From Clostridia bacterium (lineage in GTDB: Bacteria > Bacillota > Clostridia > Oscillospirales > CAG-272), in the NCBI GenBank assembly GCA_017467815.1, contig JAFUKI010000039.1, positions 1 through 64,000 of the forward strand: a stretch of DNA of 64,000 nucleotides, given 5' to 3'. This document shows positions 19,284 to 58,514 of the stretch, one piece after another (position 1 is the stretch's first letter; each line of letters begins with the position of its first letter). Below the pieces are notes generated by a model. The model did no database searches. It was not told where the DNA came from and saw only the letters and a program-made list of their open reading frames with translations. The translations under genes were made by a program, and so were the position numbers.

Positions 19284-20357
19284 ATGAAAAGAAAAACAAA
19301 ACGGCTCTGGCAGATCGTATCCATCGGATTCTGTTCCGTGTCGGCAGTCCTGATCGGTGCGATGCTGAGTTTTTACATACTGATCGCAGCAGGTGCGTCT
19401 CCGGAACTGCAAAGTGTCTGGGTATGTACAGCCATGACCACCATGTCCCATAAATACCTTGCCACCATGTTTATTCCGGAGGAGAGAATCAACGAGATCA
19501 TGGATGAAAACCGGGTAGACGACTCCGCCCACGACTCCATCATCCTGAATTTCAACAAAGAGGAAACCGAAGAAGAGACCGCCGGCATCTCCGAAGAGGA
19601 AACAGCCCTGCCGGAACCCGAACCCACTTACGAGGACGAGGGATATACTTTGCTGGAAGACGGCATTTATGTCAAGGAAGTCAGCGGCAGTACCTGGAAG
19701 GGTTACGTAATGCTGGTGGAAAATCCCATGCGGGTAAAACTGGTGGACTCTTCCAAACAGTATTCCTGCGGTGAAAAAGTCATGACCATGGTAGCAAACA
19801 GCGGTGCTGTGGCGGGGATCAACGGCGGCGGTTTCCAGGACGGTGTGAATTACGACTCCAACGGCGGAATGCCTGCCGGGATGCTGATTGAAGACGGCGA
19901 ACTGATCTATCCCTATGTATCCGATAACAGTACGGTTTACAATATGATCGGCATCAACAAAAACGGCGCGCTGGTGCTTCGTCACTGTACAACCGCATGG
20001 GCATTGAGCAACGATATCGTCAGTGCCGTATCCTTCTGGCCATTTCTTGTGGTCAACGGGGAAGGGATGATCACAAACGGCACAGGCGGCTGGGGCATTG
20101 CGCCCCGGACAGCAATCGGTCAGAGAGAAAGCGGCGAATTCCTTTTTCTCGTGATCGACGGCCGCCAGGTGGACTGGAGTATCGGCTGTGACCTGGATGT
20201 ACTGCAGGAAGTTATGTTGGCGGAAGGCGCATACAACGCAGCCATGCTGGACGGCGGAAGCTCCACGGCAATGGTATACAAAGATACATACATCAACAAA
20301 CCCAGCCTTGGACATGAAAGATGGATCAACAACGCATTTGTGGTAATGCCTGAATAA
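19284..20357 (+). CDS. Phosphodiester glycosidase family protein (NAGPA domain)
   Basis: 357 residues. A single N-terminal membrane anchor (about 8-37) is followed by a Glu-rich stalk (about 85-120). The rest is an NAGPA-type domain with GINGGGFQDG (about 180), TAIGQRESGEFLFLVIDGR and AAMLDGGSSTAMVY. This family includes the mammalian uncovering enzyme and bacterial exopolysaccharide proteins; it hydrolyses sugar phosphodiesters. The active site faces outward, so a cell-wall or exopolysaccharide substrate is likely. The ribosome binding site is weak. A terminator follows. Confidence 0.88.
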   Translation: MKRKTKRLWQIVSIGFCSVSAVLIGAMLSFYILIAAGASPELQSVWVCTAMTTMSHKYLATMFIPEERINEIMDENRVDDSAHDSIILNFNKEETEEETAGISEEETALPEPEPTYEDEGYTLLEDGIYVKEVSGSTWKGYVMLVENPMRVKLVDSSKQYSCGEKVMTMVANSGAVAGINGGGFQDGVNYDSNGGMPAGMLIEDGELIYPYVSDNSTVYNMIGINKNGALVLRHCTTAWALSNDIVSAVSFWPFLVVNGEGMITNGTGGWGIAPRTAIGQRESGEFLFLVIDGRQVDWSIGCDLDVLQEVMLAEGAYNAAMLDGGSSTAMVYKDTYINKPSLGHERWINNAFVVMPE

Positions 20358-20363
20358 GTATAA

Positions 20364-20404
20364 AAACATCGTTATGGTTTCTGCACCGTAACGATGTTTT
20401 TTGC
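20364..20404 (+). terminator. Terminator after the phosphodiester glycosidase gene
   Basis: AACATCGTTA pairs with TAACGATGTT around a 14-base loop, then T residues follow. Confidence 0.8.
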
Positions 20405-20510
20405 TTGTATATTTTCAGATATACAGAATTGTCAAAAACAAACAAAAACGGGGGGGTACACTGTATTTATGTGTATAAAGTAGAATATTTGTGTTTTGCC
20501 GGAAAGCTGC

Positions 20511-20539
20511 TTGACATTTAATTTTAATTAATATACAAT
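20511..20539 (+). promoter_or_regulatory. Strong promoter of the AATE-repeat protein gene
   Basis: A consensus TTGACA (20511-20516) and TACAAT (20534-20539) are 17 bases apart in very AT-rich DNA. Transcription would start near 20546, leaving a 5' leader of about 150 bases. A near-perfect promoter suggests high expression. Confidence 0.8.
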
Positions 20540-20550
20540 ATATAATAAAT

Positions 20551-20672
20551 CGGTATATTGTCACATTGTGGAATATATACCAATCTATCACGCATAGACA
20601 CTAACCCCAAAACATAGAAATGTTTTCTCTTCCGTACCGGAGACTGAAAATGATCTTCTGATGGTTTTGGGT
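20551..20672 (+). promoter_or_regulatory. Structured 5' leader of the AATE-repeat protein gene
   Basis: Two paired regions are visible. GGTATAT (20551-20557) pairs with ATATACC (20575-20581). ACCCCAAAAC (20604-20613) pairs with GTTTTGGGT (20664-20672) with one bulged C, enclosing an inner AACAT/ATGTT hairpin. No terminator or anti-RBS pairing is obvious, so it may stabilise the mRNA or be a regulatory element of unknown type. Confidence 0.45.
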
Positions 20673-20696
20673 ATAAAATCAGAAAGGAATAGTTTT

Positions 20697-21779
20697 ATGA
20701 AGAAGTTTTTAGCCATTCTTTTGTGCGCTGTAATGGCAGTATCCGTTATGGGTATGACCGTTTCCGCAGCAAACTACATGAGCGAAAAGGCTGTTATCTA
20801 CCAGCCCGACGAATTTACCGGTGCTGAAGATCCGTGGCTGACTGTCAATGAGGAAGAAAATAAGATCATTGAATGGTGGTCATACGGTTACGGCTGGTTC
20901 ACCAACATTGACGGTTACCCGACCTTTATGACCACCCCTGTTGGCGACAGCTACTGGGATTCCCATGTTGTGGATTCTGAAGATGTTAACCTTGCCTGGC
21001 AGGTTCGTCCTGCAAGATACCCCATCATGAAGCTGCGTTACTGTGTTCCTTACTACGGTCAGGACATTGTTGTCAATGTTCCGATCTGTGACGGACAGGG
21101 TTTTGATTTTACTCTGATCGGTGACGGTCAGTGGCACGATGCCATCATTGATCTGTATTCCTTTGATTCTCTTGACTGGGATCAGTATGTGGAATACTGG
21201 AACAGCCCGGAAAACAATGCAGGTCTTACCGAACCCATGCAGGCAGGTCTGCTGATGCAGCCCCAGGTATATGGCGAAGAAGTAGCTATTATGTTCGAAT
21301 ACCTCGGCTTCTTCGCAACTAAGGAACTGGCTGAAGCCTACAACGGCGACCCCGCAAGCATCGAAAACATCGGTGTAACCGAAGCTGTAAATGAAGCTGA
21401 AACCGAAGCTGCAACCGAAGCCGCAACCGAAGCCGCAACTGAAGCTGCAACCGAAGCTGCAACCGAAGCTGCAACCGAAGCTGCAACCGAAGCTGCAACC
21501 GAAGCCGCAACCGAAGCCGCAACCGAAGCTGCTACCGAACCTGAAACCGCAGAAGTTATTGATCCTGCAACCGAAGCTGCAACCGAAGCTGCTACTGAAG
21601 CTGCTACTGAAGCTGCTACTGAAGCTGCTACTGAAGCTGCAACCGAAGCCGCTACTGAAGAAACTGTTGAAGACGTTCCTCTTGCCGCTCCCCAGACCGC
21701 AGACATCGCTCTCGTTCTGGCTGCAATCGGTCTCACCAGCGGTGCTCTTGTTCTGAAGAACAAGAAGAACAGAAAGTAA
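20697..21779 (+). CDS. Secreted AATE-repeat surface protein with wall-anchor-like tail
   Basis: 360 residues. The signal peptide (MKKFLAILLCAVMAVSVMGM, cut after VSA) leads to a globular domain of about 200 residues rich in Trp and Tyr, resembling a carbohydrate-binding or jelly-roll fold but not recognised. Next come 11 and then 7 tandem AATE units, a likely extended stalk. The end APQTAD, a hydrophobic stretch and KNKKNRK has the layout of a sortase sorting signal, with PQTAD in place of LPXTG. AGAAAGGAA precedes the ATG at 20697. It has a strong promoter, structured leader and terminator, so it stands alone and may be abundant. Confidence 0.85.
   Translation: MKKFLAILLCAVMAVSVMGMTVSAANYMSEKAVIYQPDEFTGAEDPWLTVNEEENKIIEWWSYGYGWFTNIDGYPTFMTTPVGDSYWDSHVVDSEDVNLAWQVRPARYPIMKLRYCVPYYGQDIVVNVPICDGQGFDFTLIGDGQWHDAIIDLYSFDSLDWDQYVEYWNSPENNAGLTEPMQAGLLMQPQVYGEEVAIMFEYLGFFATKELAEAYNGDPASIENIGVTEAVNEAETEAATEAATEAATEAATEAATEAATEAATEAATEAATEAATEAATEPETAEVIDPATEAATEAATEAATEAATEAATEAATEAATEETVEDVPLAAPQTADIALVLAAIGLTSGALVLKNKKNRK
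21408..21659 (+). repeat. In-gene 12-bp tandem repeats (AATE units)
   Basis: Eleven 12-bp units (21408-21539, consensus GCTGCAACCGAA) and seven more (21576-21659, many GCTGCTACTGAA) are split by a 36-bp spacer coding PETAEVIDPATE. Codon variants cluster, which suggests recent slippage or unequal crossover, so copy number probably varies among strains. Confidence 0.95.
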
Positions 21780-21844
21780 TATTAGTTTCCTATGGTACGG
21801 TTATCTCGGTTGAGATAAAAGGGAAAATATATTACGATAAAAAA

Positions 21845-21876
21845 ACGGGTTGTCTATGAAGGACAGCCTGTTTTTT
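21845..21876 (+). terminator. Terminator of the AATE-repeat gene
   Basis: AACGGGTTGTC pairs with GACAGCCTGTT (one G-T pair) around a 7-base loop, followed by a T-run. Confidence 0.8.
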
Positions 21877-21902
21877 ATATTAAGTCAAGTATATTAATTT
21901 TA

Positions 21903-22394
21903 TCATGATCCGATTGGTAATAAATTATCATTGTAAATTGCCTGGATCAGATCATCCCCGCGATACACCAGTTTCAGTGAGAAAAAGGGAACATCCTCTC
22001 GCAGAAGCCTGAGAAAAATCTTATCCCCTTCCCAGATCGGCAGATGCTCCACATCCGGAACAGGTACCCATTCCAGCGTACCTTCATCGCATTCCCGCAT
22101 CTCACCGGAAAAGTCCCGGCATAGAAACAGATGCATATACTCACCGAAAGGGTTACCGCCTTCCGCATCGGTACACCAGAACGTGACGATGCCCCGGTAT
22201 TCCATTTTACCAAGGGTAAGTCCCGTTTCCTCCAAGGCTTCACGGCGCATACCTTCTTCCGGTGTTTCGCCTTCTTCCATACCGCCGCCGATACCGATCC
22301 ATTTGTCCTTGTTGATATCCTTTTCCTTCTTGACCCGATGCAGCATCAGATAGCATCCGTCCCGCTCCAAATATCCCAATGTTGTATTCCGCAT
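21903..22394 (-). CDS. Nudix hydrolase (MutT-like)
   Basis: 163 residues. The Nudix box is complete at about 37-59 (GGMEEGETPEEGMRREALEE then TGL). The family cleaves nucleoside diphosphates linked to another group; the length and HRVKKEKDINKDKW start resemble 8-oxo-dGTP diphosphatases, but substrate is not proven. The ATG at 22394 has GGAGAG 4 bases upstream; one at 22430 has none. It is convergent with the AATE gene and downstream of no clear partner. Confidence 0.88.
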   Translation of the reverse strand: MRNTTLGYLERDGCYLMLHRVKKEKDINKDKWIGIGGGMEEGETPEEGMRREALEETGLTLGKMEYRGIVTFWCTDAEGGNPFGEYMHLFLCRDFSGEMRECDEGTLEWVPVPDVEHLPIWEGDKIFLRLLREDVPFFSLKLVYRGDDLIQAIYNDNLLPIGS

Positions 22395-56840: not shown

Positions 56841-58514
56841 ATGTTGACAGACATCGAAATCGCACAGCAGACACAGTTGAAGCCCATCCAGGAGATCGCG
56901 GCTGAAGTAAATGTACAGCCCGAAGAACTGGAGCTGTACGGAAAGTATAAAGCAAAGATCACAGATGACGTTTCCAAGCGCCTGGCAGACAAGCCCGACG
57001 GTAAACTGATTCTGGTTACAGCCATCAACCCCACTCCCGCCGGCGAAGGTAAGACCACCACAACCGTAGGTCTGGGTATGGCTATGAAGAAGATCGGCAA
57101 GAACAGCATTATCGCACTCCGCGAACCTTCCCTCGGTCCTGTTTTCGGTATCAAGGGCGGTGCGGCAGGCGGCGGATATGCACAGGTTCTGCCCATGGAA
57201 GACATCAACCTCCACTTTACCGGAGACTTCCACGCCATCACAGCAGCCAACAACCTGCTCTGCGCCCTGATTGACAACCACATCCAGCAGGGCAATGAAC
57301 TGGATATCGACACCAGACGCATCATCTTCTCCCGTGTAACCGATACCAACGACCGTGCTCTGCGTAATGTTGTACTGGGTCTGGGCGGCAGAATCGAAGG
57401 TGTGCCGAGAGAAGACCACTTCATGATCACCGTTGCCAGTGAAGTTATGGCAATTCTCTGTCTGGCAGAAGACCTTGCCGACCTCAAGAAGCGTCTCGGC
57501 AATATTCTGGTTGCATACACCAGAACCGGCAAGCCCGTATATGCAAAGGATCTGAAGGCAGAAGGTTCCATGACCGTTCTGCTGAAGGACGCCATTAAGC
57601 CGAATCTGGTACAGACCACCGAAAATACCCCCGCACTGATCCACGGCGGTCCCTTCGCCAATATCGCTCATGGCTGTAACTCCGTACGCGCTACCAAACT
57701 GGCGTTGAAAATGGCGGATTACACCATCACAGAAGCAGGCTTCGGCGCTGACCTGGGTGCTGAAAAGTTCTTGGACATCAAGTGCAGATTTGCCGGTCTG
57801 AAGCCCTCTGCCATCGTTCTGGTTGCCACCGTACGTGCCCTGAAGTACAACGGCGGCGTTCCCAAGGATATGCTGAAGGAAGAAAACGTAGAAGCCCTGC
57901 TGAAAGGCGGCGTAAACCTGGAAGCACATATTTCCAACCTGCAGAAATACAAGGTACCCGTGGTTGTTGCCATCAACCGTTTTGAAACCGACACCGATGC
58001 CGAACTGAAGACCGTTGAAGAAATCTGTCTCCGCAACGGCGCGGATTTCGCTCTGTCCGAAGTATTTGCAAAGGGCGGCGAAGGCGGTATGGAACTGGCT
58101 GAAAAGGTAGTTGCAGCCTGCGAAAAGCCCTCCGATTTTGCACCGATCTACGAAGATTCTCTGTCCATCAAGGAAAAGATCGAATGCGTTGCCAGAGAAA
58201 TCTACGGCGCAGACGGTGTAGACTATGACGCAGCCGCAAGCAAAGCCATCGCTGAAATCGAAGCATTGGATCCCGCTTACGCACGTTTCCCCGTATGCAT
58301 GGCAAAGACCCAGTACTCTCTGTCCGACGATATGACCAAGCTGGGCCGTCCCTCCGGCTTCAGAATCCGTGTACGTGAAGTAAAGGTTTCCGCAGGTGCA
58401 GGGTTTGTAGTTGTACTGACCGGCGCGATCATGACCATGCCCGGTCTGCCCAAGATTCCTGCAGCCAACCGCATTGATATTGATGAAAACGGAAACATCA
58501 CAGGACTGTTTTAA
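56841..58514 (+). CDS. fhs: Formate-tetrahydrofolate ligase
   Basis: 557 residues, the usual length. It joins formate to tetrahydrofolate with ATP, giving 10-formyl-THF for purine and fMet synthesis and one-carbon flow. The P-loop [18 protein letters not shown] starts at 65. Motifs [18 protein letters not shown] and KLTPGDGIV-like regions are conserved. I start at 56841 because GGAGG is 7 bases upstream; an ATG at 56751 lies in the promoter. Its stop overlaps the tsaE start by one base (TAATG). Confidence 0.97.

Follow-up and report, generated by a model that had tools for sequence, protein, structure and literature searches.

A candidate sortase B substrate with AATE repeats and a predicted carbohydrate-binding-like domain in a Clostridia bacterium

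Introduction

Can an exported protein whose C-terminus reads APQTAD, and not LPXTG, be a substrate of a class B sortase encoded on the same piece of DNA? The question is raised by a 360-residue protein in a 64,000-nucleotide stretch of a Clostridia genome (the window), which a first-pass annotation, made from the sequence alone, had described as an AATE-repeat surface protein and possible sortase substrate. We approached it through the gene and its flanks, the protein's parts, the tails and sortases of the host genome, and the occurrence of both across the bacterial family.

Results

The gene and its flanks

The mechanically called open-reading frame begins at 20661, 36 bases before the ATG used here, and the protein is composed of a signal peptide, a globular domain of ~200 residues, two blocks of AATE repeats and a hydrophobic-basic tail (Table 1); the signal peptide and the APQTAD-hydrophobic-basic tail that had been proposed are both present. 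The signal peptide, MKKFLAILLCAVMAVSVMGMTVSA, is conserved in eight relatives and gives the protein the N-terminal feature expected of a sortase substrate. A lipoprotein was considered and rejected, as Cys-10 lies outside any lipobox (by eye) and is not conserved among the relatives.

Table 1. Positions of the features discussed, numbered along the window
Feature	Position	Strand	Basis
Promoter-like TTGACA-17-TACAAT	20511..20539	+	Consensus scan, 11/12 matches
Leader element TTCCGTACCGGAG	20630..20642	+	Common to both other complete paralogues in the genome
Ribosome-binding-site-like AGAAAGGAA	20681..20689	+	Read from sequence
AATE-repeat protein gene	20697..21779	+	Start ATG, 360 aa
Signal peptide MKKFLAILLCAVMAVSVMGMTVSAA	20697..20771	+	Read by eye; predicted cleavage site
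CBM-like beta-sandwich domain (predicted), aa 26-225	20772..21371	+	AlphaFold2 model, Foldseek/VIA matches
AATE block 1, 11 units	21408..21539	+	Translation, TRF
AATE block 2, 7 units	21576..21659	+	Translation, TRF
Candidate sorting motif APQTAD, cleavage expected after Thr	21687..21704	+	Translation, tail comparison
Hydrophobic segment IALVLAAIGLTSGALVL, 17 residues	21705..21755	+	Translation
Basic tail KNKKNRK	21756..21776	+	Translation
Terminator-like hairpin (intrinsic type) with terminal T run	21840..21876	+	-20.4 kcal/mol, z -7.45
Class B sortase, 364 aa	40031..41125	-	TIGR03064, PDB 2oqw alignment, PF04203

With a promoter-like site upstream and a strong terminator-like hairpin 3′ of the gene, the AATE-repeat gene is probably transcribed alone, as its own transcription unit; the promoter carries little weight in this, since the consensus scan returned six such sites against 3.2 expected, and the same scan omitted the hairpin from its list. 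The upstream neighbour (19284-20357) encodes a phosphodiester glycosidase (NAGPA) domain. Rfam gave no match at gathering scores in 20350-21950. The leader element, CTCYTCCGTRCCGGAG, is found in all three complete paralogues, 65-71 nt upstream of the start codon (L003 1436-1448 and L005 1430-1442 besides the window copy), the rest of their leaders being different, and just once more within 822,531 bases of locus sequence, a total in which overlapping loci are counted repeatedly. It is a possible shared regulatory site. The idea that it forms an RNA hairpin was set aside, as it was well folded relative to shuffles in one of the three copies only.

AATE repeats and copy number

The 18 AATE units in two blocks described earlier were recovered as 11 + 7, separated by PETAEVIDP, and TRF reports them as a single 12-bp array (21377-21660, 23.7 copies, 84% matches). 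The first-pass annotation had also read clustered codon variants as a sign of variable copy number. The clustering holds for the window array (8 identical neighbours vs. 4.1 expected, p 0.013), but only 3 of 11 arrays from two species reach p<0.05 (p 0.013, 0.022 and 0.0074, uncorrected for 11 tests). Segmental duplication judged by the order of units is clear in two of the 11 arrays (each p under 1/2000), both in the sister species G017. Variation in copy number is supported between paralogues and species, with 12 to 44 AATE per complete gene. In one locus (L048 2977-4155, minus strand) 11 codon-variant units are duplicated in the same order, over 132 bases.

The globular domain

None of the Pfam and NCBIfam models reached its cut-off on the globular domain, and the best PDB sequence match, 5t7a, was not significant (E 0.22). 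An AlphaFold2 model of the domain built from five sequences, of middling confidence (pLDDT 63, pTM 0.67), was led in Foldseek by xanthanase, CBM30 and CBM29, with CBM11 lower (E 5e-4 to 7e-3, TM 0.3-0.5). VIA-align scored CBM29 at Z 9.2 (132 aligned, rmsd 3.1, 7% identity) and CBM11 at Z 8.3, on a scale where Z below 8 may reflect only a common arrangement, and 17 of its best 20 rows were CBM entries or CBM-bearing xanthanase chains. Foldseek matches to toxin binding components and axonemal/flagellar proteins were discounted as common beta-sandwich matches. The domain is also weakly linked, by profile, to domains within large proteins of another genome (G051). It had been called unassigned, which stands as regards Pfam families at cut-off but not as regards the predicted fold: residues 26-225 are predicted to form a carbohydrate-binding-like beta-sandwich, with its ligand presumed. 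That it is instead a protein-binding or structural beta-sandwich, which would be compatible with sortase anchoring, we consider rather unlikely; this would suit the lack of a Pfam family and of a significant PDB sequence match, and a shared jelly-roll fold is no proof of function, whereas the predominance of CBM structures among the best VIA rows, and sibling proteins that carry CBM6 and CBM9_1 in the same slot, argue for a carbohydrate binder.

The tail and the sortase

The C-terminal end of the protein, AAPQTADIALVLAAIGLTSGALVLKNKKNRK, resolves into AAPQTAD, IALVLAAIGLTSGALVL and KNKKNRK, which is the layout of a sortase substrate (pentapeptide motif, hydrophobic segment, basic tail) with a non-canonical motif. 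It falls outside the LPXTG family proper, having Ala at P4 and P1′ instead of Leu and Gly. On this tail TIGR01167 scored 14.1-15.1 bits (cut-off 15.9) and PF00746 14.7 bits (cut-off 20), and full-length scans of the protein listed no curated sorting-signal model; such sub-cut-off scores are a feature of the annotation and not of the biology. The earlier comparison of PQTAD with NPQTN served in pointing to a possible sortase substrate, but NPQTN is not the best comparison, as Clostridioides difficile SrtB cleaves SPQTG peptides and not NPQTN (PMC4155245).

A class B sortase had been reported from the window, and it is encoded there on the opposite strand to the AATE-repeat gene. It scores 171 bits against TIGR03064 (cut-off 153.75), and its best PDB match is 2oqw (SrtB, E 2e-35), which we take to be the Bacillus anthracis sortase; the TLSTC, GH and R positions, presumably catalytic, align between the two. 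A single-sequence structure model of the enzyme (pLDDT 36) was set aside. A PF04203 search of the 2.99-Mb host assembly returned this gene as its single match, although with 177 contigs and 90.66% completeness another sortase could be missing. We infer that it is the cognate enzyme of the PQTxD tails.

Relatives, other tails and module shuffling

The host genome contains three complete copies of the AATE-domain protein, the window gene included, plus one cut by a contig end. The two other complete ones, at positions 57201 and 25778 of contig C31, share 65% and 40% N-terminal identity in the alignment, and the truncated one leaves the end of contig C143 inside its repeats. A fifth AATE-repeat protein (C31:27634, minus strand) has other domains, including CBM6 (35.2 bits, cut-off 28.9), and terminates in SAPQTFDAGVIAAAAAVISAAAFAVSKKRSK. 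Elsewhere a decayed remnant of the family (L006, C55:77563-77679) retains the end of the domain and the extreme end of the tail, and has lost the repeats and PQTxD. In the genome contig collection a single-protein query found no relative, and an alignment query found three loci from one genome (SVTO01, SIG697).

The first-pass annotation had named the lack of other such tails in the genome as evidence against its proposal. A P-Q-T-x-D DNA pattern occurred at 37 places in the genome against 15 for the reversed control, and at seven of the 37 the motif is in frame, 29-33 residues before the stop, and followed by a hydrophobic stretch and a basic end. These are two PQTAD, two PQTFD and three PQTGD tails, two of the latter identical. 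This leaves six distinct PQT[A/F/G]D tails, each residue represented twice, which sit behind four unrelated kinds of domain; none of the PQTGD proteins is related to the AATE family. The identical pair (C125:18652 and C168:1730) have the same 3′ ends, which may have arisen by a recent duplication event or by duplication within the assembly. Searching for P-x-T-G-D (52 places vs. 23 in the control) gave no tail besides the PQTGD ones.

Two unrelated hydrophobic tails, beginning IALVL and AGVIAA, both follow APQT[A/F]D. The sister species G017 has the window-type domain with tail A (PQTAD-IALVL), with tail B (PQTFD-AG) or with a motif-free transmembrane tail; tail A also ends a CBM9_1 protein of the same species, so that the repeat/tail module is found behind three kinds of domain: the predicted beta-sandwich of the window protein, CBM6 and CBM9. 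In the host, the paralogue at C31:25778 shares its linker and PQTFD with the gene convergent to it, and continues with the hydrophobic segment of tail A. Given these mosaic tails and linkers across the genes of both genomes, the repeats look like recombination points. The motif-free tail, EEPASSKTPIIVGCVAAVVVIAAVVGIIVKTKKSKK with a close variant, is carried by two relatives in G017 that share the domain and the repeats, which indicates that this architecture can work as a membrane anchor. Sister-species relatives of this kind, having a plain transmembrane tail that lacks PQTxD, lie at L047 4035-5459 and 5697-7115, with AATE counts of 32 and 44. Another locus (L018 497-9949, minus strand) contains a 3150-residue open frame with a signal-peptide-like start, many CTVC-type repeats and no sorting tail at its end.

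Shape of the signal

With a motif-free filter we collected 110 distinct hydrophobic-plus-basic C-terminal tails from the fetched loci, three duplicate loci being excluded; most of the loci had been retrieved by a match to a tail or a sortase, and the proportions that follow are therefore no census. P-x-T is present in 75 of the 110. Among these, the residue after Thr is F in 30, G in 25, A in 14, S in two and H, N, M or L in one each; P2′ is D in 61 and G in nine; Pro is preceded by A in 48 and by L in 12. Several of the 35 tails that passed the filter without P-x-T resemble spurious frames or sortase C termini, and two of the 35 read AQT[AF]D. Such AQTAD and AQTFD tails, in which the proline is missing and the usual hydrophobic and basic parts follow, occur at L212 and L214. 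Judged from these sequences, the wider signal appears to be A-P-x-T-[F/A/G]-D. In the list of SrtB signals given by PMC11987632 Thr is followed by G, N or S, and the best activity of the B. anthracis enzyme needs Asp at P2′, so that, against that list, Phe or Ala at P1′ is new and the Asp is familiar. In the open-licence PMC literature we found no paper on PQTFD, no sortase paper by title or abstract for PQTAD, APQTF, PXTFD or PXTXD, and, for Ruminococcus, no paper on an NPXTG-sortase or on class B sortase motifs.

Tails and sortases across the family

We searched 196 genomes from the bacterial family with a profile of 22 tails, motif included (A4), and scored TIGR03064 as present at E<=1e-5. 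Tails at E<=1e-3 occurred in 52 genomes, 50 of which have TIGR03064, compared with 66 of the 144 others (Fisher p 6.5e-12, from genomes that are not independent, with relatedness outside the statistics and many draft assemblies). At E<=0.05 the figures are 69/84 and 47/112 (p 1.4e-8); 13 of the 32 genomes with tails at E 0.001-0.05 only have no TIGR03064 match, and these, together with the exceptions below, make the association weaker at loose cut-offs. Counting any sortase (PF04203 added), 51 of the 52 strong-tail genomes have one vs. 70 of the 144 others, and strong tails occur in one of the 75 genomes that have no sortase match. A hand count by genus gave 24/24 against 23/47 (p 3e-6). The two strong-tail genomes without TIGR03064 are G234, which has another, non-class-B sortase, and G199, which has no sortase match. 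PF04203 matches do not exceed TIGR03064 matches in 24 of the 52 strong-tail genomes, a rough sign that these have class B sortases only. In a first set of 59 relatives, seven sortase-less genomes shared one weak tail match (G052, E 0.03), and no PxT[x][DEN] tail was found there. Numbers of tail matches reach 28 in G229, 22 in G108, 16 in G124 and 15 in G098, against four in the host. The lack of other such tails, which the first-pass annotation had named as refuting its proposal, did not come about, and where strong the tails track class B sortases through the 196 genomes.

Discussion

The whole of this evidence is probably best explained if the window protein is a cell-wall-anchored display protein for carbohydrate binding. 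The signal peptide would direct it to Sec export, and the C-terminal hydrophobic segment with KNKKNRK would hold it in the membrane until the SrtB encoded 18 kb away recognises A-P-Q-T-[A/F/G]-D, cuts behind the Thr and attaches the protein to peptidoglycan; this sortase step is supported by the conservation of the motif, the single-sortase genome and the co-occurrence. The AATE array, whose length changes by tandem duplication, as its repeat variation attests, would act as a spacer, bringing the domain across the wall, and the beta-sandwich, going by its fold and by the CBM6 and CBM9 siblings on the same chassis, may bind polysaccharide. The mosaic genes suggest that the chassis is exchanged between domains by recombination.

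Two other accounts of the tail were weighed. It might be a plain membrane anchor, uncut, with the AATE array alone spanning the wall and PQTAD a relic of a sorting signal. The two motif-free G017 relatives would fit this, as would the absence of Ala and Phe from the P1′ residues listed for studied SrtB in PMC11987632 and a C. difficile SPQTG protein that goes unprocessed in vivo (PMC5569036). We nevertheless regard it as unlikely, since APQT[AF]D, were it a relic, would not be preserved on two hydrophobic tails unrelated to each other, or track sortases from genome to genome, and P2′ is Asp in 61 of the 75 PxT tails collected with a motif-free filter, from loci mostly fetched by tail or sortase matches. 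Less likely again, and in our view quite improbable, is that another enzyme acts on the PxTxD tails, be it a sortase missing from the incomplete assembly or a non-sortase protease. Phe at P1′ is odd for a sortase, and the exceptional genomes G199 and G234, with tails and respectively no sortase match and a non-class-B match only, point the same way; against it, G024 with 14 tail matches and G108 with 22 have one sortase match each, of class B, and the sister species G017 likewise has one PF04203 match. The structure of the tail, the several tails per genome, the motif on different hydrophobic segments and the co-occurrence with sortases together make a SrtB substrate the best reading.

A broader proposal, on which we are evenly divided, is that the class B sortases of this family serve for anchoring in general, with up to tens of substrate proteins in a genome. 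They would read A-P-x-T-[F/A/G]-D and accept a residue as bulky as Phe at P1′, depending on Thr and the P2′ Asp in place of Gly. As current annotation models would overlook such a signal, a large share of the surface proteins of these bacteria would be uncounted. If class B sortases do accept Phe or Ala after Thr, the surface proteins of this large group of gut bacteria could be listed by motif, and the enzymes would be candidates for ligation tools in which the leaving group is new. With its varied sugar-binding domains, the AATE chassis would offer such cells a simple modular hold on polysaccharides.

Among described signals, the NCBIfam model NF033846 (Rumino_NPXTG) matches 8 of the 22 tails at E<=1 and TIGR03063 (srtB_target) one; on individually scored tails NF033846 stays below its cut-off, scoring 18.4 bits (cut-off 23.5) for tail B with its PQTFD and giving no match to the window tail. 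There is a close likeness to the (S/P)PXTG system of C. difficile, likewise a gut clostridial genome with one class B sortase, suggested to be the housekeeping enzyme, which cuts SPQTGD and similar peptides at the T-G bond (PMC4155245), although the SPQTG protein CD2768 showed no sortase processing in cells (PMC5569036). The SPQTGD-type signal followed by a hydrophobic segment and basic tail has the same layout as the tails described here, whereas the AATE family has Ala or Phe, not Gly, at P1′, and P4 is mostly Ala. The streptococcal AbpA/SrtB pair (LPKTS-AVK, cut T|S) is another class B signal without Gly after Thr; AbpA differs in having neither hydrophobic segment nor charged tail, and its sortase and substrate genes are linked (PMC4974636). 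Ruminococcus flavefaciens ScaE/CttA (PMC4081043) similarly combines a sortase-anchored surface protein with attachment to cellulose by CBMs, but does so through cohesin-dockerin pairing, whereas here a predicted CBM-like domain, a putative spacer and a candidate sorting tail are contained in one small protein.
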